Part shown: in pieces, positions 12,984 through 26,782 of the stretch
Layout of the letters: each line of letters opens with the position of its first letter
Position numbering within the stretch: the stretch's first letter is position 1
Notes under the pieces: model-generated
Told to the model about the DNA's origin: nothing
Database searches by the model: none
What the model saw: the letters and a program-made list of their open reading frames with translations, nothing else
Translations under genes and position numbers: made by a program
DNA from: Candidatus Zixiibacteriota bacterium
GTDB lineage: Bacteria; Zixibacteria; MSB-5A5; GN15; JAAZOE01
Assembly: GCA_036480375.1 (NCBI GenBank)
Contig: JAZGGI010000031.1
Span: 1-62,498 of the forward strand
Direction of reading: 5' to 3'
DNA: 62,498 nucleotides

Positions 12984-15947
12984 TCATGAACCGCCTTTCA
13001 GCCGCGCCAGACGGGCGCGGGCGTCTTCGACTTCTTCAATGCCCGGGTCGGCGTTTTTCCAGATATCGAGGAAAGTTTCGTATTGTTCTATCGCCCGGGC
13101 GTCCCATCCGGATTCTTCGTAGGCCAGACCCAGGTAATAATAAATCTTTACCGCCATGGTAATCACACCGACTCGCCCGACATCAAATCTGTTAATGGTT
13201 TTTTCAAGCTGGGTCACAGATTCGCCCAACCTGCCCGACATCAGGTATGCTCTACCGAGCATATAATGCACCTGGAAGTGTGTCACATCTTTTGCCGCCT
13301 TTTCATAACAGACAACGGATTGTTCATAATTGCCTTTGGCAAATTCAATATGACCAACGGCATACCAATATGCCCATATTGTCGATGAATCATTTTTTTC
13401 GATATCTTTCTTAAAAATCTCAGCCTCTTTTTGTGCTTTCGCAAAATCTTTATCCCATGAAAGCGGTAAGATATACTCGTGTCGAAAATAAATCCAGTCA
13501 TCGGGATGGGCATCGGAATAATCTTTTATGGCTCTTTCAGCTTCCTTCAGCGCCATTTTCCATTCTTTTCTCGCCTCATATATATTGGCTTTAATAAATC
13601 GAAGATCCGCTCCGGCATAATCACCCTGTTCTATTCTATCCGCCGCCATGGCATCATCTAATAATTTCAGGGCTTCGGTGAATTTCCCCTGATAAATGGG
13701 AATATAAGATAAGAGCATTCTTCCAAGTGAACGTCGGAATGCGTTACTATCAGAACAAAGCTGGCGGTAAAAAATTTCAGCCTTGTCATACTCTTTATTG
13801 AAAAGATACAGATATCCTAATTTAAGCCGAGACGCGTAAAAATCCGGTTTTATTTCCAATGCCTTTTCGTATGATTCAATGGCCTGTTCTAACTTGCCGT
13901 TATAGGCATAAAGGTCAGCGCGAGTATCATATGGATTGGCTTCGTCGGGATCCGCGACTTCTATATATTTATTGATAGCCCAAATTGCGCTGTCATATTT
14001 GTACTGGGAATTATATATATAGGCAAGTCGATTATATACTGGACCGAATAATGGATCAAGCTGTATTACTTCCCAATAATGACTTTTTGCCTTTTCAGTA
14101 TCCCGTTTATTTTCATTGTAGTAATCCCCCAATATACTTTTAGCTATTTTTTCCTCCGGATATTTCTCAATTATTTCAGTAAGGTATTTTATGTAGTTTT
14201 CATAATCAGGGTAATCTTCCCTATAATAAGCGTCAAAGGCTTTGATGTACAGCTTTTCCAGCGAGGACGCTTTACCTGAATAAAGGTTCATCTTATATAA
14301 AATTGTATCTCTTTCATCTCCTTCCGTGTGGATTAATAATGCCAAATATGCCATAGCAAATGTTGAGTCATAAGTGAGCGCTTTTCTATAGCACTCTTCA
14401 GCATCATCACTGTAGAGTTTTTGTTGATATTCCATGCCCTCTAATAAGTAACGATATGCTTCTACGGAGCTGGTTGTCAATTCTGAAATTTCGGGATCTT
14501 CTTCAGATAACGCCTGGGCAGGCAGCGATAGGTCGTTTTTTATTTCGACGGTTAGTTTATCCACCAATGGGAATATTCTATCGCCAGGTTGACCTTCTAT
14601 TCGTTGGGAAGCGATGGCATCACCTGATTCAACATCAATTATCTGGGCAGTCAGAATTATTTCCGGCTCCATATTTAGGATGCTGCCCAATAGCATAGAT
14701 TTTGCGTTAGCCTTCTTTGCAACTTGTGTGGCTATGTTTCTACTGATATTCTTTTCACCTTCATGTCCAAGTTGCTTGAGAATATCATACAGACGCTGGC
14801 TGGATACTACTTGAACATATTCTGATTCGGAAAGGTCGGTTATTAACAGGTTAGCAGTTATCTCGCCAAGCTTCAGGCTATCCTCCGGGTCGGCCAGATT
14901 ATCAAAGTACATTATGGCCAGTCTATTTTCCTGGGCTATGGCTTCCTGTCGTGGGCTGATTTCAAATTTCCACGGTTTAAAAATGAGAATGGCCACGGCG
15001 ATAATAACTATAAGAACTGGAATGAGAAATTTATTATATCTTTTCGTTGCCGATATGGCTGGTTTTGATATTTGATTGGGATCTGTTTCTTTCAATATTT
15101 GCTTTAAATCCGATATGACACCGGCTGCTGTTTGATAGCGAGTCTCGATATCTTTGTCCAAAAGTTTTGAGACAATTCGTTGAAGTTCACCGGATACGCC
15201 GCTTTTGAATCTTGATAACGGTTCAGGAGTGTCATTCAAAACAGCATTCATGGTTGCAGCTTCTGTGTCACCTTTGAACGGTAATCGTCCGGCAATCATC
15301 TCATACAGTATAACTCCAAAAGAAAACAGGTCGGAACGTTGGTCAACCTTGTCGACTTGTATCTGTTCGGGTGACATGTAACCGATTGTGCCGAGGGTTG
15401 ATCCGGTCTGAGTAAGTTGTTCACCGCCTGCAATGGCAACTAAACCAAAATCAGCCAGCTTGGGACGACCGTTTTTATCAAGAATGATATTGGACGGTTT
15501 TATATCGCGATGGACAATATCAGCTCCATGAGCTTCCTGCAGACCTTCACATATTTGAAGAGACAATTTAATAATATCATCAAATCCCAACTTCTGATCT
15601 TTTATCAGGTCTCGAAGCGAATCCCCTTCAATATGTTCCATCGCAAAGAACGGTCGCCCCTTATATTCGGAAACCTCATATATGGTAACTATATTGGGAT
15701 GCTTCAGCTTTGCGGCCGCCTGAGCTTCACGGGTAAATCTTGCTTTGGCATCTTCGTTCTGAGAGAGGTGTGACGGCAGGAATTTGAGGGCGACTTTCCG
15801 GTTTAGCTTGGTATCTTCGACCAGATAGACCTCGCCCATCCCCCCGGCACCGATTTTCTCGACCATCCGGTAGTGCGACACCATCATCCCCTTACTCAGG
15901 ATGATGTGCGATTGTGTCTTGTCGTCCTGTTCTGAATTCTCTGTCAT
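12984..15947 (-). CDS. Transmembrane Ser/Thr protein kinase with TolB-like and TPR sensor region
   Basis: A 987-residue PknB-type kinase. The glycine loop is GAGGMG (33-38), the ATP lysine Lys55, the catalytic Asp148 in HRDIKPSN and the metal Asp166 in DFG, so it should be active. One transmembrane helix lies at about 307-323. Outside it there is a TolB/FlgO-like segment (about 335-465, NRLAIMYFDNL) followed by many TPR helices to the C-terminus, ending LARLKGGS. The tail probably senses or scaffolds partners in the periplasm. The end is nearly the same as that of the kinase at 18998-22168, showing they are paralogs. It is third in a tandem minus-strand array, 84 bp after the second kinase. 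Confidence 0.92.
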   Translation of the reverse strand: MTENSEQDDKTQSHIILSKGMMVSHYRMVEKIGAGGMGEVYLVEDTKLNRKVALKFLPSHLSQNEDAKARFTREAQAAAKLKHPNIVTIYEVSEYKGRPFFAMEHIEGDSLRDLIKDQKLGFDDIIKLSLQICEGLQEAHGADIVHRDIKPSNIILDKNGRPKLADFGLVAIAGGEQLTQTGSTLGTIGYMSPEQIQVDKVDQRSDLFSFGVILYEMIAGRLPFKGDTEAATMNAVLNDTPEPLSRFKSGVSGELQRIVSKLLDKDIETRYQTAAGVISDLKQILKETDPNQISKPAISATKRYNKFLIPVLIVIIAVAILIFKPWKFEISPRQEAIAQENRLAIMYFDNLADPEDSLKLGEITANLLITDLSESEYVQVVSSQRLYDILKQLGHEGEKNISRNIATQVAKKANAKSMLLGSILNMEPEIILTAQIIDVESGDAIASQRIEGQPGDRIFPLVDKLTVEIKNDLSLPAQALSEEDPEISELTTSSVEAYRYLLEGMEYQQKLYSDDAEECYRKALTYDSTFAMAYLALLIHTEGDERDTILYKMNLYSGKASSLEKLYIKAFDAYYREDYPDYENYIKYLTEIIEKYPEEKIAKSILGDYYNENKRDTEKAKSHYWEVIQLDPLFGPVYNRLAYIYNSQYKYDSAIWAINKYIEVADPDEANPYDTRADLYAYNGKLEQAIESYEKALEIKPDFYASRLKLGYLYLFNKEYDKAEIFYRQLCSDSNAFRRSLGRMLLSYIPIYQGKFTEALKLLDDAMAADRIEQGDYAGADLRFIKANIYEARKEWKMALKEAERAIKDYSDAHPDDWIYFRHEYILPLSWDKDFAKAQKEAEIFKKDIEKNDSSTIWAYWYAVGHIEFAKGNYEQSVVCYEKAAKDVTHFQVHYMLGRAYLMSGRLGESVTQLEKTINRFDVGRVGVITMAVKIYYYLGLAYEESGWDARAIEQYETFLDIWKNADPGIEEVEDARARLARLKGGS

Positions 15948-16031
15948 GTACTGCTCATTCTAATCATCTATCGCTGCATCCCAATACTGTCATTCGAACA
16001 GTTCTCGCGGTGAGCCGCCCAACGACCGATT

Positions 16032-18989
16032 TTATTTTGCCGGCCCAAAATATAGATCCAGCCAAGCGAGGCTTTCTATGATAATATTTTTTTGAGGTAT
16101 AATGTGATCAGTTTCGTAAGTGATAAGATTTTTATCCGTATTCGGTGTTCCCAATAGATCAAACATTGGTTTTGCGCAATAGTCGTAAGGGACGTTCGCG
16201 TCAAACCTACCATGAAGCATTAAAGTTGGTATAGTAATTCGTGAAATATAATTAATACCGTCAACCTCAGGTTTTGTCTTTCTCCTCCATGGCTTCAAAC
16301 CACCAGCATCGATGATAGAGATTTTGATTCGTTCTTCTACAGCGGGAATTATGCTCCCCAAAATACCTCCCCAGCTGCAACCGAAATAAGCCAGTTTTTC
16401 GGTATCAATATCTGACCGGGTCTCCAGATAATCGATGACTCTTTTAAAATCTTTCACGACTCTAACAACATAGTCCTTAAACTCGTGGGATTCATTCCAG
16501 CCAAAATGCAATGAACCTGGTAGACCATCCCTGCGCTCAAACGTTCCCTTGTATATAGGATACACCACAGCTCGCCCGTCTTTTACAAAATGGGAAAGCC
16601 TGTAGGTAAACTCCCAATATCTTTCAATATGATCACTGGAGGGTACATATACAGAACCGGAACCCGGGAAATAGACGACTGTTTGATAAGGAGGTTTACT
16701 GCTTCTGGGCAGGAAAAGGTGAATGATGATCCGTTCATCGTCATAGGCTGCAGAAAAGGTGATTTTTTTATAAATCCAGTGAGGTGATTGGTCTTTGGTA
16801 TCCTCAATTGTTGCTTTAAGATCAATTTTATCATACGAAAACATGTCTTTATAAATATTAAAAATGGCATCAGAGACTGGCGTTTCTTTGTAGAAGTTCC
16901 TAATCTTCCCGGGTATTCGAGGTGCGAAGATATCCTCGGATATGACATCCTTATCAAAATAACTTACACAACGAATCCCATTTTTAGAAAAACGATCAAA
17001 CGGATCAGCTTGACTGATGTTGCCATACATGTAATGAACATCATTCCATGCACCTCCCCGGATGCATCGTCCCTTCTCAGATGCATTCCAACACCACTCC
17101 CTAACGTTTCCTGCCATGTCGTACACGCCAAACTGGGTTATGGCCTTCGTCGTGCCTATAGGAACAGGACCCTTTCCACCAAAATTGCACATGGAATAAA
17201 ATAAATAAGAAAGCATTCCAAGACTTCCTCTCCTCGCGGCTCCCCAATGGCTGGTAGTCGGTAGGTCTTTTCCGACAAACTCTGCATATGCAGCGGCCTC
17301 ATACCAACTTACTCCAGAGACTGGGTGATTCCTCTTGCCCTCCGGATAACTTCCAACTTCCCATGTTGATGGGCCCAATCTATCGGTAGCATCTCGGAAT
17401 TCAGCCATTGCCGTCTCCCAGGAAACTTCATTTCCATTTTGTATGAAAGGATGTTTCCAATAGGCTCTGTCTTGATAACCGCCAGCATCTACGAACTGTT
17501 TATACTGCTCATTGTTCACCTCATATTTGTCGATAAGGAAATCGGGGATTTCCTCAGTTCCCGGAATACGTACCATACCAGGAGGCAAGGTTCCTTTCTT
17601 TTCCAGAATACAATTTTGAAACCCTGGCAAATATGTGACGTTATTCCAATCAATAGATCCTCGCGACCAAAAGAGGCGGTGCATGGTATCATATCCCGAT
17701 TTCTCGAATTTCCAACAGAACAAGTAGTTCGGCATACGCATACTGTCAATTGGCGAAAGTCCGATGAACTCCCAATCATTCTCTGATTTATCGAAAGGTT
17801 TCCGAAAAATCCTTGCACCGGCAGGCTGTGTATGAATTGAAATGACTCCAGAGATGAGATTCATGTGCTGTTTCAATTTCGGATCATCCGGGATGAATTC
17901 TTCTGCCTTAACAGCCAGATCAAATGCTTCAATGTTATTTTCATGCATCCCCATACTTATTAACTCTTCTATCTTGGGGAGAGCCACATCTCTGGCCCAT
18001 CGGGTTTTATTCACGCGATAAAGCCCTCTTACAATGAAGGCAGTACCAATAATGATAATAAATCCAAGTGGTATTAGGAATGCTGGTTTTAAGTATCGGT
18101 TGAACTTTCCTGTCCTTTTCATTCCAATTCCGGTTATTTGAACATTGATCTGCTCTAATTCAGTTCTAAATTCAGAGACAGAAGCAGTGCGTAATGATAT
18201 ATCTTTCCGGAGTGATTTTTCTAAAAGTGTGATCAATGGGGCAGGAAATGACTTTAACATCTCCTCTTTGAGCCCGGGTTCTTCATTTAGAATAGAATAA
18301 ATTATAGCCTGCTCATTGTCTCCTTTAAATGGCAACTTTCCGGTAAGCATTTCAAACAAGACAACACTTAAAGACCATATATCGGTACGATGATCAACCT
18401 CATCACCTCGTGCTTGTTCCGGCGACATATATCCGACGGTCCCAAGCGTTGAGCCGATTTTGGTCAGTTTCTCTTCTCCAGTTACCGTCGCCAGGCCAAA
18501 GTCTAAGAGGCGGGGTTTGTTTTTTCTATCAATGATGATGTTGCTTGGCTTGATATCGCGATGCACGACACCGGCGGTGTGGGCTTCATTCAGCCCCTCG
18601 CAGATTTGCAAAGTCAGATTGACCGCTTCTGAAACTGTGAGTTTGCCCTCTTTGATTACTTCCCGAAGAGATTTACCCTCAATGTGCGCCATCGCAAAGA
18701 ATGGGCGACCCTGAAATTCACCTACTTCGTAAACCGGAACAATATTGGGATGGTCAAGCTTAGCCGCAGCTTTGGCTTCGCGTGTGAAGCGGGCCCGGCT
18801 GGCTTCATCCTGACAGAGATGAGTGGGGAGGAACTTGAGGGCGACTTTCCGATCCAACTTTGTATCCTCAGCCAGATAGACCTCGCCCATCCCCCCGGCA
18901 CCGATTTTCTCGACCATCCGGTAGTGCGACACCATCGTTCCTTTGGTCAGCACGACGTGCGTGCGTGTCTTGTCGTCATCAGGTTCCAT
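16032..18989 (-). CDS. Ser/Thr kinase fused to PEGA, sulfatase-modifying-factor-like and alpha/beta hydrolase domains
   Basis: A 985-residue multidomain protein. The kinase is at 20-285 (Lys52, Asp145 in HRDIKPSN, Asp163 in DFG), with a membrane helix near 303-323. A PEGA-like segment covers about 382-455. A formylglycine-generating-enzyme-like C-lectin fold lies at about 470-680 (GMVRIPG, HPVSGVSWYEA, GNVREWCWN, RGGAW), and an alpha/beta hydrolase at about 700-985. The hydrolase triad is readable: Ser872 in GCSWGG, Asp930 in GRFDANVP and His962 in ETDHIIP. The lectin-like domain lacks the paired cysteines of true formylglycine enzymes after RGGAW, so it is probably a binding domain. The gene begins 8 bases after the stop of the kinase upstream. 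Confidence 0.9.
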   Translation of the reverse strand: MEPDDDKTRTHVVLTKGTMVSHYRMVEKIGAGGMGEVYLAEDTKLDRKVALKFLPTHLCQDEASRARFTREAKAAAKLDHPNIVPVYEVGEFQGRPFFAMAHIEGKSLREVIKEGKLTVSEAVNLTLQICEGLNEAHTAGVVHRDIKPSNIIIDRKNKPRLLDFGLATVTGEEKLTKIGSTLGTVGYMSPEQARGDEVDHRTDIWSLSVVLFEMLTGKLPFKGDNEQAIIYSILNEEPGLKEEMLKSFPAPLITLLEKSLRKDISLRTASVSEFRTELEQINVQITGIGMKRTGKFNRYLKPAFLIPLGFIIIIGTAFIVRGLYRVNKTRWARDVALPKIEELISMGMHENNIEAFDLAVKAEEFIPDDPKLKQHMNLISGVISIHTQPAGARIFRKPFDKSENDWEFIGLSPIDSMRMPNYLFCWKFEKSGYDTMHRLFWSRGSIDWNNVTYLPGFQNCILEKKGTLPPGMVRIPGTEEIPDFLIDKYEVNNEQYKQFVDAGGYQDRAYWKHPFIQNGNEVSWETAMAEFRDATDRLGPSTWEVGSYPEGKRNHPVSGVSWYEAAAYAEFVGKDLPTTSHWGAARRGSLGMLSYLFYSMCNFGGKGPVPIGTTKAITQFGVYDMAGNVREWCWNASEKGRCIRGGAWNDVHYMYGNISQADPFDRFSKNGIRCVSYFDKDVISEDIFAPRIPGKIRNFYKETPVSDAIFNIYKDMFSYDKIDLKATIEDTKDQSPHWIYKKITFSAAYDDERIIIHLFLPRSSKPPYQTVVYFPGSGSVYVPSSDHIERYWEFTYRLSHFVKDGRAVVYPIYKGTFERRDGLPGSLHFGWNESHEFKDYVVRVVKDFKRVIDYLETRSDIDTEKLAYFGCSWGGILGSIIPAVEERIKISIIDAGGLKPWRRKTKPEVDGINYISRITIPTLMLHGRFDANVPYDYCAKPMFDLLGTPNTDKNLITYETDHIIPQKNIIIESLAWLDLYFGPAK

Positions 18990-18997
18990 ACGTTATC

Positions 18998-21900
18998 TCA
19001 CGATCCGCCTTTCAGTCGAGCCAGTCGGGCGCGGGCGTCTTCGACCGATGGCAACCCTTCGTCGGCGTTTTTCCAGATATCGAGGAAAGTCTCGTACTGT
19101 TCGATCGCGTCGTCGGTGCGCCCGGCTTTTTCATACGCCTGGCCCAGATAGTAGTGAATCATGACTCCCTGCGCCGGCCAGTCTGCCAGACTCAGTTCAT
19201 ACCGATTTATGATCTTCTCAGAGACTGCTATGGCATCGTCAAGCCTTCCGGCGCCAAGATAGCCTTCGGCCAGGTACTGTCGATAACTTAACAAGGGAAC
19301 TAGTCGGACCAGTTTTTCCAGGTGGACCACGGCAACGTCGAAGTTCCCCTTCTGCATTTCAATCAGACCAACGAAGAACCAGTAGCCACTGAGCGCCGTC
19401 GGGCCATAGTCCTCAATATCCCTTTCCAGATCCCGGAGCAGTTGGTCTGCCCTGTCCAGGTCACCACTCAATGCATGACTGTAGGCGGTAGCGCCCCTTG
19501 AAAAGGCAACCAAATGGTTATTCGGTTCAATCTCATTGAGCGTTCCCAGCACTTTCTCAAATTCGGAGATTGCCGACTCTCGGTCATCAAGGTAAATTTG
19601 GAAGATATACCCTCTCTTGTAATGTCCAAATGCCCGGAAATAGCCCCCAAGAGAATCAGCGAGAGCTTTATCCTTAAGTCCATCCAGCATGCGGAGTCCT
19701 GTTTCAAACTTGCCCTGATGCAAAGGTGTTAGCGCCAGGCAAAGCCTGCCATCTGCCCTGGTCTCCTTGTCGGGATGAGAAGCGAGAACCCGGTAGAGGC
19801 TCTCCGCCTTTGTATAGTCCTGCCTGAACATGTGCATGTTTCCCAGATTCCTGAGACTGAGGGCAAAGTCCGGTTTTATCTCAAGAGCTTTCTGGAAGGA
19901 GGCAATAGCACTGTCGAGCATGCCATTGAGGGCATAGATACTCCCCCGGGTATCATAGGCATTGTGTTTATCCGGGGTTGATTCAATGTATTTGTTGGCT
20001 GCCCAGAGGGCCTTGTCAAGATCTCCAATCCACTCATAGATATAAGCCATATTATTATATGCTTTTTTGTCTATCTGGACAGCCAGTGAACATTGCCTGA
20101 TGGCATCTTCATTCCTGTCCATGCAATACGCCAGAAGGAAAGCATAAGTTATATAAGACTGCCATCGATTCGGTTCGATTTCGATCAGGCGCTGGTATAG
20201 TTCTTCTGCTTCCTGCCATTCGAAAGACCGTCTTTTTCTATCAGCCCTGTTGGAAATGAGGGGAATTGACATTGGATTCAACTCAAAGGCGATATCTTCC
20301 TCATGGATCTGGTCCGGGTACTTAGCCATATCTCCCAGCAACAACGAGTACCAGAAGTGTGCCCAGAAATAACCGGAATTAAGCTCAATAGCCCTTAAGT
20401 ACGCCTTCTCTGCTCCTTCCAGGTCCGTTTCGTCCCAGAGAATTGATGCCAGCGAGGTGTGGGCTTCGGCCAGGCCTTCATCGAGCCCAATAGCTATTTC
20501 CGCCGCTTCTTTGGCTTTCGCAATAGCCTCCGTTTTTGTTATAGCCCCGGGCACATCAAGATAACCGGGAAGGACGGCCCAGGCATCAGCCAATCCGGAG
20601 TAAGCCAGGGCATAGTCCGGGTCAAGCTCAATCGCCTTTTCAAAATACTCAATCGCCTTCCGGATGTCCCGCTCGGTCCGTTTACTCCACAGGTGGCGAC
20701 CGCGCGAGTAGTAATTATAGGCTTCTATATTCTCCGTGTAGCGGCGGGTGACAACTGCCTCGTCCTTACCGAATAGCTCGATTCTCATAGCGTCAACAAT
20801 GGCCCGAGAGATGTCATCCTGAATGTCGAAAACACTTTTGAGTTCTTGATCGTACGTCTCTGACCAGAGGTGAGCGTCATCGGGGACATTGATCAATTGC
20901 GCTCTGACGCGGATTCGGTGGTCCTCACGCTGGATACTGCCTTCAAGAACGGTGTTGACCTGCAGGTCCCGGCCAATCTTCCTGAGGTCGCGATCCGGGG
21001 TCTTGTAGCGCATCACCGATGTCATTGAGATAACTTTGAGGTTCGCAATTCCAGACAGTCTACCGATAAGGGCATCGGTCATCCCATCGCAGAAATACTC
21101 CTGGTCTTTGTTGGGGCTGAAATCTCTGAAGGGAAGGACGGCGATCGAGTTGGTCCAGCCATCCTTACCGGGCACCTCGGATACCAGAGTCTGATCGATA
21201 ATGAGATAACCGGCCACGACGATTACAACCGCACAAAGGGCGATGATGACTACCGCCAGCGGGCCGAAACGCCTGCCGGGCTTGGTTACCTCAATCGTGT
21301 CGGCTGAGCGTCGCCGCAGCCTGCGCAGGTCGGCTAACATTGCGGCTGCCGTTGGATAGCGGGTCTCGACATCTTTGTCCAGCGCGCGATCGACAACGTC
21401 CTGGAGTCCATCCGGTATTTCGGCCTTGAAACGGGCCATTGGCTCTGGCGACTCATGTGTGACCGCGTGCAGCGTGGCGGCCTCGTCTTTTCCCTTGAAT
21501 GGACGGCGGCCGGTGATCATTTCGTAAAGAACGACACCAAGCGAGAACAGGTCCGAACGTTCGTCTGCCTTGCGCCCCGAAGCCTGCTCCGGAGACATGT
21601 AGCCGACCGTGCCGAGCGTAGAACCGGTTTTGGTCAGTTTGTCGGCACCCATGACAGTCGCCAGGCCGAAATCAAGCAGCTTGGCCCGGCCATCGGTGTC
21701 TATCACAATATTGGAAGGTTTGATGTCACGGTGGATGACACCTGCCTGATGTGCCTTGTTCAATCCCTCGCATATCTGGGCAGTCAGATTGACGGCCTGA
21801 TCCAGGGTTAACTCTTTGCTTTTGATAACATCACGCAGAGACCGACCCTCAATATGCTCCATGGCGAAGTATGGCCGACCCTGATACTCGCTGACTTCGT

Positions 21901-22168
21901 GGATCGTGATGACGTTGGGATGACTGAGCTTGGCAGTGGCCTGGGCTTCGCGAGTAAACCTCGCTTTGGCATCTTCGTTCTGAGAGAGGTGTGATGGCAG
22001 AAATTTCAGAGCGACTTTGCGCCTCAGCTTGGTATCCTCAGCCAGGTACACTTCACCCATCCCACCGGCGCCGATCTTCTCGATAATCGTATAATGCCCG
22101 ACTTCGGTACCTTTGGTCAAAGCAGTGAAGGACTGCGTTCGGTCATTTTCGAATTCATCCGCCGCCAT
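18998..22168 (-). CDS. Transmembrane Ser/Thr protein kinase with TolB-like and TPR region
   Basis: A 1056-residue PknB-type kinase, first of the tandem array. Lys55, Asp148 (VIHRDIKPSN) and Asp166 (DFG) are all present. A transmembrane helix lies at about 305-327. The outer part starts with a TolB/adenylate-cyclase-associated domain at about 340-460 (SIAVLPFRDFSPNKDQEYFCDGM broken by conserved turns, LEGSIQ, HLWSETYD), followed by about 15 TPR helices. It ends in VEDARARLARLKGGS, almost the same as the kinase at 12984-15947. GAGGTAA precedes the ATG. Its base composition is richer in G+C than the middle kinases, so the paralogs have diverged in different settings or were mixed by recombination. 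Confidence 0.92.
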   Translation of the reverse strand: MAADEFENDRTQSFTALTKGTEVGHYTIIEKIGAGGMGEVYLAEDTKLRRKVALKFLPSHLSQNEDAKARFTREAQATAKLSHPNVITIHEVSEYQGRPYFAMEHIEGRSLRDVIKSKELTLDQAVNLTAQICEGLNKAHQAGVIHRDIKPSNIVIDTDGRAKLLDFGLATVMGADKLTKTGSTLGTVGYMSPEQASGRKADERSDLFSLGVVLYEMITGRRPFKGKDEAATLHAVTHESPEPMARFKAEIPDGLQDVVDRALDKDVETRYPTAAAMLADLRRLRRRSADTIEVTKPGRRFGPLAVVIIALCAVVIVVAGYLIIDQTLVSEVPGKDGWTNSIAVLPFRDFSPNKDQEYFCDGMTDALIGRLSGIANLKVISMTSVMRYKTPDRDLRKIGRDLQVNTVLEGSIQREDHRIRVRAQLINVPDDAHLWSETYDQELKSVFDIQDDISRAIVDAMRIELFGKDEAVVTRRYTENIEAYNYYSRGRHLWSKRTERDIRKAIEYFEKAIELDPDYALAYSGLADAWAVLPGYLDVPGAITKTEAIAKAKEAAEIAIGLDEGLAEAHTSLASILWDETDLEGAEKAYLRAIELNSGYFWAHFWYSLLLGDMAKYPDQIHEEDIAFELNPMSIPLISNRADRKRRSFEWQEAEELYQRLIEIEPNRWQSYITYAFLLAYCMDRNEDAIRQCSLAVQIDKKAYNNMAYIYEWIGDLDKALWAANKYIESTPDKHNAYDTRGSIYALNGMLDSAIASFQKALEIKPDFALSLRNLGNMHMFRQDYTKAESLYRVLASHPDKETRADGRLCLALTPLHQGKFETGLRMLDGLKDKALADSLGGYFRAFGHYKRGYIFQIYLDDRESAISEFEKVLGTLNEIEPNNHLVAFSRGATAYSHALSGDLDRADQLLRDLERDIEDYGPTALSGYWFFVGLIEMQKGNFDVAVVHLEKLVRLVPLLSYRQYLAEGYLGAGRLDDAIAVSEKIINRYELSLADWPAQGVMIHYYLGQAYEKAGRTDDAIEQYETFLDIWKNADEGLPSVEDARARLARLKGGS

Positions 22169-24645: not shown

Positions 24646-26205
24646 CTATCTTAATTTTGAAAACCATTCAAGAATGTGCCAATAGGATTTAATCTGAAAA
24701 TCAGGATCGCCTGATGATATCTTTGAAACAATCTTAAGGAATGAATAAAATACATTATTGTGATTCACCGCATGGAAAAAGCATTTGCCTTGTTCAATAT
24801 CGGTAGCATCAAACAAAAATTCAAACAATCTATCATTTTTATTTTTGGCTATTACACGCCATATAAATCGCGGCATATTTTTAAGTAATATTTCCTTTTT
24901 TTCGGAGAAATGAATCGACGTATCATTCCGGAATTCAGACTTTAGCTTATTGACAGTTGTGAGATAGATATCCCACTCAAAAAGTTTAGGAAATGGAAAT
25001 TTGGATTTCTTAAAGAATTCCTCATAAATAAATATTTCAAAACTGCGGATAACATTTCTAATAAACTCATACCTTATTCTTATTTTTGGATAAAGAGGAA
25101 TCAATATAAAACGAGGAACCGCTCTAATTTTTCCCCGTTTCCACGAGGTTGAAATCGAGTTGTACTTATGTTTTTGATAAGAAATAGTTTTATTGTCAAG
25201 CTCTACTCTTGCGAATGGTCCTACTTGATCATCGTGAACATAAAGCTTATCAATTTGGGAAGATTTTAGCAGAAAATTATTTGATTCGTAAGGAACGCAT
25301 TTATCTTTTCCAAGGCTAAATCCAGTAACCGCCATAGCGTGGCCGCCCAAATATTTCGGCAATTCTCTATTTGTAATATCAAATAATGAAACCCTTAATA
25401 AAAGAGGAATACCCGCCTTTAAATAGGCATAAACAGCTCCCTGTAAATTTGAATATTGTTGGGCATCTATATGATCAACTTCTAATCCTAATTGACGAAT
25501 AGCATAAATTTCCTGCTTTCCAGTCAATCCTCTACTTGGCAAAAAGCCGGGCACATTTTCATCCGGAAACTTAGTAGCAATTTGTGTAATTTCCACTGGC
25601 GATGGTATTGAATGTTGAAATAATTTACCTGTTCCCTGAAATACTGACCATAAGGCGCTTGTCGCGCAAGCTGCAACACCTCGATCTTGTTCTTGGAAAG
25701 CAAGTGTTTTATAAACTGTTAAGTTAATACCAAATAAACTAACGGGATATTCCCTTAGTATGGGATACTGTCTCCGTTCATTATCAGATCCATAAGTAAC
25801 TAGGCATGTCCGTCCAATAAAAGTCTGTGGAAGTTTTTTTATTACAATAAATCCAAGGTATGATTTCTTAAAATTTAATACATTTTTCGCCTTGCTTCGA
25901 TTTATCAAAATGGTGCTAAACAATTGCGGAGAAAATTTTAATTTAAAAAAGTGTAGCCTGGTACACGAGCTTTCATATTTATCAAAACAACGGGAATAAA
26001 ACCCAGCGTAATCTTCCATAAAATCTCTATCAATATAATCATTTTCCACAACAATAGTTTTGGCGTTTAGGTCGGTGAAATAATGCTCGAAATATAGAGA
26101 ATGAAGCTTAGAATCAACAATTGAAGGCAAGGCGCCAGATTTTTCAGATAGTAATTGTTTTAATGTATTTATTGTGTAAGGGAAAATCTCATATGGTTTT
26201 TTCAT
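24646..26205 (-). CDS. Unknown protein with papain/C39-like cysteine peptidase signature
   Basis: A 519-residue cytoplasmic protein with no family I can name. The middle third has the order of a papain-fold peptidase: Gln171/173 and Cys180 in QEQDRGVAACATSALWSVF, His289 in YLGGHAMAVTGF, and Asp325/326 in LYVHDDQVGPFARV. The stretch LKAGIPLLLRV and the helix KQEIYAIRQLGLEV between them look like the C39 fold. The first 165 and last 180 residues are basic, AT-rich in codon use and without motifs or membrane helices. It follows a 59-residue helical protein by only 6 bases and probably shares its mRNA. Its base composition is clearly lower in G+C than its neighbours, which suggests transfer. A protease or transglutaminase-like role is inferred only. 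Confidence 0.7.
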   Translation of the reverse strand: MKKPYEIFPYTINTLKQLLSEKSGALPSIVDSKLHSLYFEHYFTDLNAKTIVVENDYIDRDFMEDYAGFYSRCFDKYESSCTRLHFFKLKFSPQLFSTILINRSKAKNVLNFKKSYLGFIVIKKLPQTFIGRTCLVTYGSDNERRQYPILREYPVSLFGINLTVYKTLAFQEQDRGVAACATSALWSVFQGTGKLFQHSIPSPVEITQIATKFPDENVPGFLPSRGLTGKQEIYAIRQLGLEVDHIDAQQYSNLQGAVYAYLKAGIPLLLRVSLFDITNRELPKYLGGHAMAVTGFSLGKDKCVPYESNNFLLKSSQIDKLYVHDDQVGPFARVELDNKTISYQKHKYNSISTSWKRGKIRAVPRFILIPLYPKIRIRYEFIRNVIRSFEIFIYEEFFKKSKFPFPKLFEWDIYLTTVNKLKSEFRNDTSIHFSEKKEILLKNMPRFIWRVIAKNKNDRLFEFLFDATDIEQGKCFFHAVNHNNVFYSFLKIVSKISSGDPDFQIKSYWHILEWFSKLR

Positions 26206-26211
26206 GAGGAA

Positions 26212-26391
26212 TTATAGTGTAGCTGGCTCATCTAAAAGCCTGGGGTCAACTTGAGCTTCCTTTTTCATTTTTTCAATAGCCTTCTCAATTTTCTTATCCG
26301 TTTTCTTTAAAGATTCCTTCCATTCAGGAGATTTCATCAAGGCAACTACTTTCTTATTGACCTTTTCGATGGTTTTTTCTTCTTGGGTCAT
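26212..26391 (-). CDS. Small helical lysine/glutamate-rich protein
   Basis: A 59-residue protein (MTQEEKTIEKVNKKVVALMK, then SPEWKESLKKTDKKIEKAIE, then a short tail ending DEPATL). It should be almost wholly alpha-helical with heptad-like charge and a Pro-Glu-Trp break. The ATG has TAGGAGA six bases upstream, a strong reason to accept it. The stop lies 6 bases before the start of the C39-like gene. It could be a substrate, inhibitor or antitoxin-like partner of that protein; none of these is shown by sequence. Confidence 0.7.
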   Translation of the reverse strand: MTQEEKTIEKVNKKVVALMKSPEWKESLKKTDKKIEKAIEKMKKEAQVDPRLLDEPATL

Positions 26392-26540
26392 GATAGTCTC
26401 CTAAAAGAGTTCAGTATTTTTTATTTAATCCGCCAATCTGGTATTTAACAACGCAAATTAACTAAAAATGTTTACTGTTTTATTATCGGAAATCAAAGAA
26501 GCTTTTTTAGTCATAAAAAAACTACTCATTTTTGTGTAAG

Positions 26541-26581
26541 TTAACGGCTATCTTTTGCCGTAGGCAAAAGATAGCCGTTAA
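26541..26581. promoter_or_regulatory. 41-bp perfect palindrome overlapping a promoter
   Basis: Arms of 19 bases (starting TTAACGGCTATC, ending GATAGCCGTTAA) around a 3-base centre. It covers the predicted -10 and start site of the promoter for the two-gene unit, so an operator is likelier than a terminator; no U tract follows on the minus strand. Confidence 0.6.
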
Positions 26582-26595
26582 ACTTTAAATGTCAA
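26568..26595 (-). promoter_or_regulatory. Predicted sigma-70 promoter of the peptide/C39-like unit
   Basis: On the minus strand TTGACA (26590-26595), a 16-base spacer and TATCTT (26568-26573). The -10 lies in one arm of the 41-bp palindrome. The leader would be about 170 bases. Confidence 0.5.
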
Positions 26596-26782
26596 TAAAA
26601 ATAATATCACATTTTTGACTTTCCTATTACAAATAAGTTCAAAAAAACGCATCTCATTTTAACCTGAATTTCTCTATTTCCTACAACTCCAGCGTTATTT
26701 CCGATTCCATCTTGTTTTATAGCATGATAAATGTATTGCTCAAAAATTCATTTGGGGATGGAAAATAGAAAAAGGGGCTGTG

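Follow-up and report, generated by a model that had tools for sequence, protein, structure and literature searches.

A conserved gene pair encoding a predicted papain-fold enzyme and a small partner peptide with a conserved C-terminus

What do two closely spaced genes in a Candidatus Zixiibacteriota genome encode, and do they belong together? The question is raised by a short unit in the window analyzed here, that is, the whole stretch of 62,498 nucleotides. On the minus strand, a gene for a 59-residue peptide (positions 26212–26391) ends 6 nt before a gene for a 519-residue protein (24646–26205), and a GGAG ribosome site precedes the peptide gene. A preliminary description had noticed both open reading frames (ORFs), their spacing and the strong ribosome site, all of which are indeed present. 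It proposed a transferred accessory module in which a helical peptide partners a protease-like protein. The unit sits between a flavin-reductase-like gene (+) and an OmpA-type gene (−). As had been claimed, both genes are poorer in G+C (34–35%) than their surroundings (40–56% in the flanking kilobases). Elsewhere in the window (12984–22168, −), three consecutive large genes for proteins of 985–1056 residues begin with the same Ser/Thr-kinase-like start; two of them run on into repeat-rich regions, and they appear to be tandem paralogs.

The larger gene encodes a protein with a predicted papain-like core

We analyzed the larger protein using the ORF list, an alignment of 79 homologs, AlphaFold2 and Foldseek. 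The residues singled out beforehand (Gln 171/Gln 173, Cys 180, His 289 and Asp 325/Asp 326) are all found at the positions given. In the alignment, Q173, C180, H289, D325 and D326 are invariant, together with 17 further columns (E54, Y57, D65, R83, H85, Y116, G118, G159, D174, A179, W186, L227, G295, H324, G329, W449 and D466). An oxyanion Gln, Cys, His and Asp/Asn in this order constitute the clan CA pattern, here conserved throughout the family, and such invariance is what an active enzyme would be expected to show.

The AlphaFold2 model, based on the same 79-sequence alignment, has a pLDDT of 94.7 and a pTM of 0.93. When it was compared with PDB structures using Foldseek, the top match was the staphopain–staphostatin complex (1pxv; E 1.6e-4, probability 1.0), followed by prostaphopain and then by C39 double-glycine proteases (6mpz, with probability 1.0, and 3b79). 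The Ufm1-specific protease (UfSP) was among the weak structure matches, and the matches in BFVD were phage papain-like proteases. TM-scores against staphopain and C39 domains are 0.5–0.6 when normalized by these small targets and only about 0.2 by the query, so that the similarity is confined to the central core. Accordingly, the protein can be divided into an N-terminal domain (residues 1–165), the papain-like core (about 165–360) and a C-terminal domain (360–519). Both end domains are conserved across homologs and, though they hold invariant residues, neither has a clear structural counterpart. Taken together, the predicted core, which matches staphopain and C39, and the invariant Cys-His-Asp set in 79 homologs bear out the papain-like fold suggested earlier: the model has a papain-like (clan CA) core, and the protein is probably a peptidase or an acyl/peptidyl transferase of papain fold.

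Some homologs reach about 700 residues (L017, L018, L022, L078, L086, L090, L091, L095, L098, L100, L101 and L105). They carry an extra C-terminal domain of 150–200 residues, unmatched in Pfam, with the motif IWAISxxGxLxIGxE...GHPxLTGxKPARIAGE...INxKSGRYS.

The pair falls outside the searched family libraries

The HMM searches suggested in the preliminary description found Peptidase_C39_2 (PF13529) and BtrH_N (PF14399) to be the nearest Pfam models, both below their cut-offs. The window protein scored 16.6 bits against the former (cut-off 24) and, over residues 217–296, 14.7 bits against the latter (cut-off 29.7). Among the homologs, Peptidase_C39_2 was matched at E≤0.01 by 7 of 79, with a best value of 6e-5. 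NCBIfam returned no match to the window protein, and in PADLOC-DB 2.0.0 neither a window protein nor any of the 79 homologs matched a system protein. A profile of the 79 enzyme sequences retrieved zero PDB sequences at E≤10, staphopain included. We therefore rejected membership in an established family: Pfam, NCBIfam, PADLOC and PHROGs, searched with the window protein, its 79 homologs or both, gave sub-threshold or single-member matches only. A phage origin was rejected as well, since the enzyme is unmatched in annotated phages and its relatives occur in only a few IMG/VR contigs. In all four annotated plasmid records that we examined, the enzyme is labeled "hypothetical protein".

A literature search, whose coverage excluded many subscription journals and preprints, found no paper on the enzyme–peptide pair. 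The fold, then, is already known and the two-gene system is not; neither gene is represented in the searched libraries or literature, in line with the earlier remark that no named system has this pair. A published survey treats C39, C39_2, BtrH_N and staphopain within one papain-like protein cluster (PMC10318531).

The small upstream gene is a genuine partner

Could the small ORF lie next to an unrelated protease gene merely by chance? An upstream small ORF with an ATG start is found at 85 of 93 enzyme genes; the same is true for 209 of 415 neighboring control genes, so that having some small ORF upstream is by itself common. The nature of the ORF is what differs. An upstream small ORF ending in [TSN][LIVF] precedes 55 of 93 enzyme genes and only 6 of 415 controls. 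Nearly all loci have a small ORF immediately upstream, mostly 42–70 residues long and mostly separated from the enzyme gene by a short gap.

The same picture emerged from a profile that was built up from 12 seed peptides and used to search the 10,635 small ORFs of all loci. Of its 54 matches at E<0.01, 53 lie directly upstream of an enzyme gene, a position held by 1.2% of ORFs; the seeds were chosen among upstream ORFs and hence are not independent, while some 40 further matches are. The one exception (L030:11784–11952, +) is the only locus found with the peptide gene just downstream of the enzyme gene. Throughout 194 genomes, all strong peptide matches adjoin an enzyme gene, with zero orphans, and weaker ones (E 5e-4 to 0.01) fall within longer frames. 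For the enzyme branch that diverges most (L010, L011, L012, L014 and L019), the profile recognized no peptide with confidence.

The profile test and the control comparison, together with duplication of the pair as a unit (see below), refute chance adjacency, to which we give practically no credence. Absence of the small gene is not a regular feature among homologs of the large protein, and co-occurrence in other genomes, which the preliminary description had left to be checked, turned out to be widespread. The pair is a real, conserved system, whose function is considered in the following sections.

The peptide ends in a conserved free tail

The peptide was described as helical, and two helices are indeed predicted. 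Its first part contains a W/L-x-x-S-x-x-G-like pattern, and it ends in the tail QVDPRLLDEPATL-COOH; the peptide of a second copy in the host genome ends in QVDPKLLDEPATL. The family-wide tail, V-D-P-x-x-L-x-x-P-x-[T/S]-[L/I/V]-COOH, is anchored on the stop codon, and the stop-anchored consensus reads V-D-P-E-x-L-x-x-P-[FIV]-T-[LVI]. Counted from the stop codon, T/S/N at −2, L at −7 and D/S at −11 are conserved; peptides had been selected by the last two tail positions and independently of L at −7 and D/S at −11. Conservation is strongest in this tail rather than in the helices, and the N-terminus is variable. Because the tail is conserved in register with the stop codon, we argue that the free C-terminus of the peptide is functional. 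The best-supported reading of the pair is that the activity of the enzyme is tied to this free C-terminus of its partner.

This pattern bears on two alternative roles of the peptide. It might be the precursor of a RiPP-type pair, with the enzyme as a C39- or BtrH-like maturation protease or acyltransferase. The nearest Pfam models, Peptidase_C39_2 and BtrH_N, fit such a role even if under their cut-offs, and C39 domains process leader peptides. However, a conserved C-terminus with a variable N-terminus is the reverse of a conserved leader followed by a variable core; moreover, there is no double-glycine site, and neither a transporter nor a modifying enzyme recurs among the neighbors. With the wrong end of the peptide conserved and no transporter, we rejected this very improbable explanation. 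Alternatively, the peptide might be a constitutive subunit or a chaperone that folds or activates the enzyme in a stoichiometric complex, with neither toxin nor regulatory role. The strict linkage and the order of the genes would suit an obligate subunit no less than an inhibitor, and the same holds for the confidently predicted two-helix part. On the other hand, conservation would then not be expected to peak in the tail rather than in the helices, and the enzyme alone is already predicted with very high confidence. We regard a purely structural role as unlikely.

We also modeled the enzyme together with the peptide as the natural read-through product, in which the stop TAA is read as Gln, using 16 fused rows in addition to enzyme-only rows. 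In this AlphaFold2 model the peptide helices are confident, but the tail block has a mean of 57, with residues 57–60 below 50, and pTM drops from 0.93 for the enzyme alone to 0.85. Thus, the joint prediction called for earlier supports the helices and leaves the tail at low confidence, with no confident docking in the fusion, whose 3-residue tether may prevent docking.

A duplicated leader contains a perfect palindrome

The whole unit, comprising leader, peptide and enzyme, is present once more in the host genome, on another contig (C27), and the two enzymes are 75% identical. Homology between the copies spans window positions 24647–26615, covering the leader and both genes and ending at the enzyme stop codon. 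The 224-nt leader (26392–26615, −) is identical at 213 of 224 positions (95%), whereas in the enzyme 230 of 518 codons (44%) differ at the third position. Either the leader is under strong constraint, or gene conversion has taken place.

A palindrome with two perfect 19-nt arms and a 3-nt loop (26541–26581) is situated about 150 nt before the peptide gene. The second copy has the same palindrome at equal distance, and exact copies occur nowhere else in the genome. Among 194 genomes, just 2 contain the palindrome core, TATCTTTTGC-N5/7-GCAAAAGATA, always in front of the pair; in the second of these (G023), the enzyme is about 60% identical and the spacer is two bases longer. Since the palindrome accompanies both copies of the unit and its core is found only beside the pair, it is not a chance occurrence. 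Of 70 loci with enzyme homologs, only 3 have perfect arms of at least 11 nt in front of the unit; the palindrome is thus a feature of the closest copies rather than of the family as a whole. Folding of the leader RNA is strong (z −6.7) and falls to z −1.6 without the palindrome. Rfam gave no match in the leader, and a Pfam search recognized no DNA-binding domain in either gene product. We consider the palindrome a putative operator or leader hairpin.

The preliminary description had spoken of a palindromic promoter. The palindrome is real, but the promoter part fares less well: a sigma-70-like match, TTGACA-16-TATCTT (26568–26595, −), overlaps the palindrome as a consensus match only, and such matches are no commoner in the leader region than in shuffled sequences. 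The leader also contains a 23-codon ORF (26458–26529, −). Both copies retain the open frame, and the few differences between them include a stop-to-stop change; the ORF has no ribosome site and is possibly a chance ORF or a leader peptide.

Patchy distribution and possible mobile or defense-type neighborhoods

Relatives of the enzyme occur at no fewer than 181 places in GTDB genomes, archaea included, of which 80 were kept. They are found in Zixibacteria, Planctomycetota, Cyanobacteria, Pseudomonadota, Bacteroidota and archaea, in a few IMG/VR contigs, and on plasmids of Hymenobacter, Pseudomonas, Shewanella and Mesorhizobium. Closer to the host, another Candidatus Zixiibacteriota contig has a homologous locus with the same gene order. 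Nevertheless, only 13 of 194 genomes, host included, have relatives, and none of the six other genomes of the host's own family does. We looked in same-family genomes for a clean empty site and did not find one: the OmpA gene is retained with different genes downstream of it, so insertion boundaries are not definable that way. The patchy distribution, plasmid carriage and deviating composition support horizontal transfer of the unit as an accessory module, as had been proposed. In one genome (G025), the enzyme gene is divided between two contigs (C60 and C38; L006 and L015), which points to a break in the assembly or to an inserted sequence within the gene.

In 10-kb flanks of about 93 loci, JAB-ThiF E1 proteins occur at 8, Multi_ubiq/E2-type proteins at 6, IrrE-type peptidases at 7 and DUF6527 at 5; neighbors are otherwise diverse. 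Multi_ubiq was detected in 1 of 194 genomes of relatives and in 0 of 14 control genomes, a comparison that is not phylum-matched, and this rarity makes a chance association with the neighborhoods unlikely. Single loci adjoin Gabija GajA (L031), an Hma-type cluster (L038) and a PglX/type IIG-like protein (L042). These observations suggest mobile or defense-type neighborhoods. Placement in defense islands, raised in the preliminary description, is only partly supported; few loci lie beside known defense genes. Loci near multiubiquitin, E2, JAB-ThiF or DUF6527 operons are L017, L019, L046, L076, L087, L089 and L103.

In an alternative reading, the peptide serves the enzyme as a substrate or as a small modifier, to be cut, transferred or conjugated via its C-terminus, much as Ubl proteases act on ubiquitin-like proteins. 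A free C-terminus conserved in register with the stop codon would suit carboxylate recognition, UfSP is among the weak structure matches, and the E1 and Multi_ubiq/E2-type proteins stand out given the rarity of Multi_ubiq. Yet the peptide has no Gly-Gly and is predicted to form two helices rather than a β-grasp fold; an activating enzyme is missing from the vicinity of most loci, and neighboring multiubiquitin operons have a JAB protease of their own. We consider this role rather improbable, but still the leading alternative.

The peptide as a possible gate for the enzyme

We slightly prefer a different explanation, since the small gene comes first and has a good ribosome site, the peptide shows no Ubl fold, and activating enzymes are mostly not encoded nearby. 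In this explanation, to which we assign nearly an even chance, a papain-fold enzyme is kept inactive by a dedicated two-helix peptide, and the two form a horizontally spread module. The peptide would be translated first and the enzyme just after it, both from one two-gene module. The C-terminal tail of the peptide would then lie in or next to the substrate groove and hold the enzyme inactive, as an antitoxin- or inhibitor-like gate, until a trigger removes, cleaves or competes with the tail and thereby releases the enzyme. The palindrome may let the unit regulate itself. An accessory module of the defense or selfish-element kind would be the likely setting. A more specific version, namely a protease-based immune or addiction module shared by bacteria and archaea, in which the peptide C-terminus restrains the enzyme and phage infection or plasmid conflict releases it, is conceivable but doubtful.

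If the peptide gates the enzyme, bacterial accessory modules would include a protease–peptide switch as a further type; should it instead be a modifier, the pair would represent a conjugation or processing pathway with a non-ubiquitin fold. Either way, current annotation misses a pair found from archaea to Pseudomonas plasmids, whose small gene has no family model.

Comparison with known systems

Several known systems resemble the pair in part. Staphopain is secreted, and the staphostatin gene lies downstream of the protease gene. Staphopain (C47) and staphostatin likewise combine a papain-fold cysteine protease with its own small, co-encoded inhibitor, and they provide the best fold match. 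The differences are that staphopain has no significant sequence match to the enzyme and lacks a counterpart of its extra N- and C-terminal domains, and that the small gene is here upstream and encodes two helices. Peptidases C39 and C39_2 (PF03412, PF13529) have in common with the enzyme the papain-like core and the Gln, Cys, His, Asp order; unlike C39, the enzyme is not fused to an ABC transporter and has no double-glycine substrate. The butirosin acyltransferase BtrH (PF14399) has a common papain-like fold and weak profile similarity over residues 217–296, but aminoglycoside pathway genes were not seen around the enzyme. Type II toxin–antitoxin systems likewise have the small gene first and the effector second, close linkage, patchy spread, plasmid carriage and an upstream palindrome. 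In contrast to them, the small protein here has no recognized DNA-binding domain, and a papain-fold effector would be unusual.
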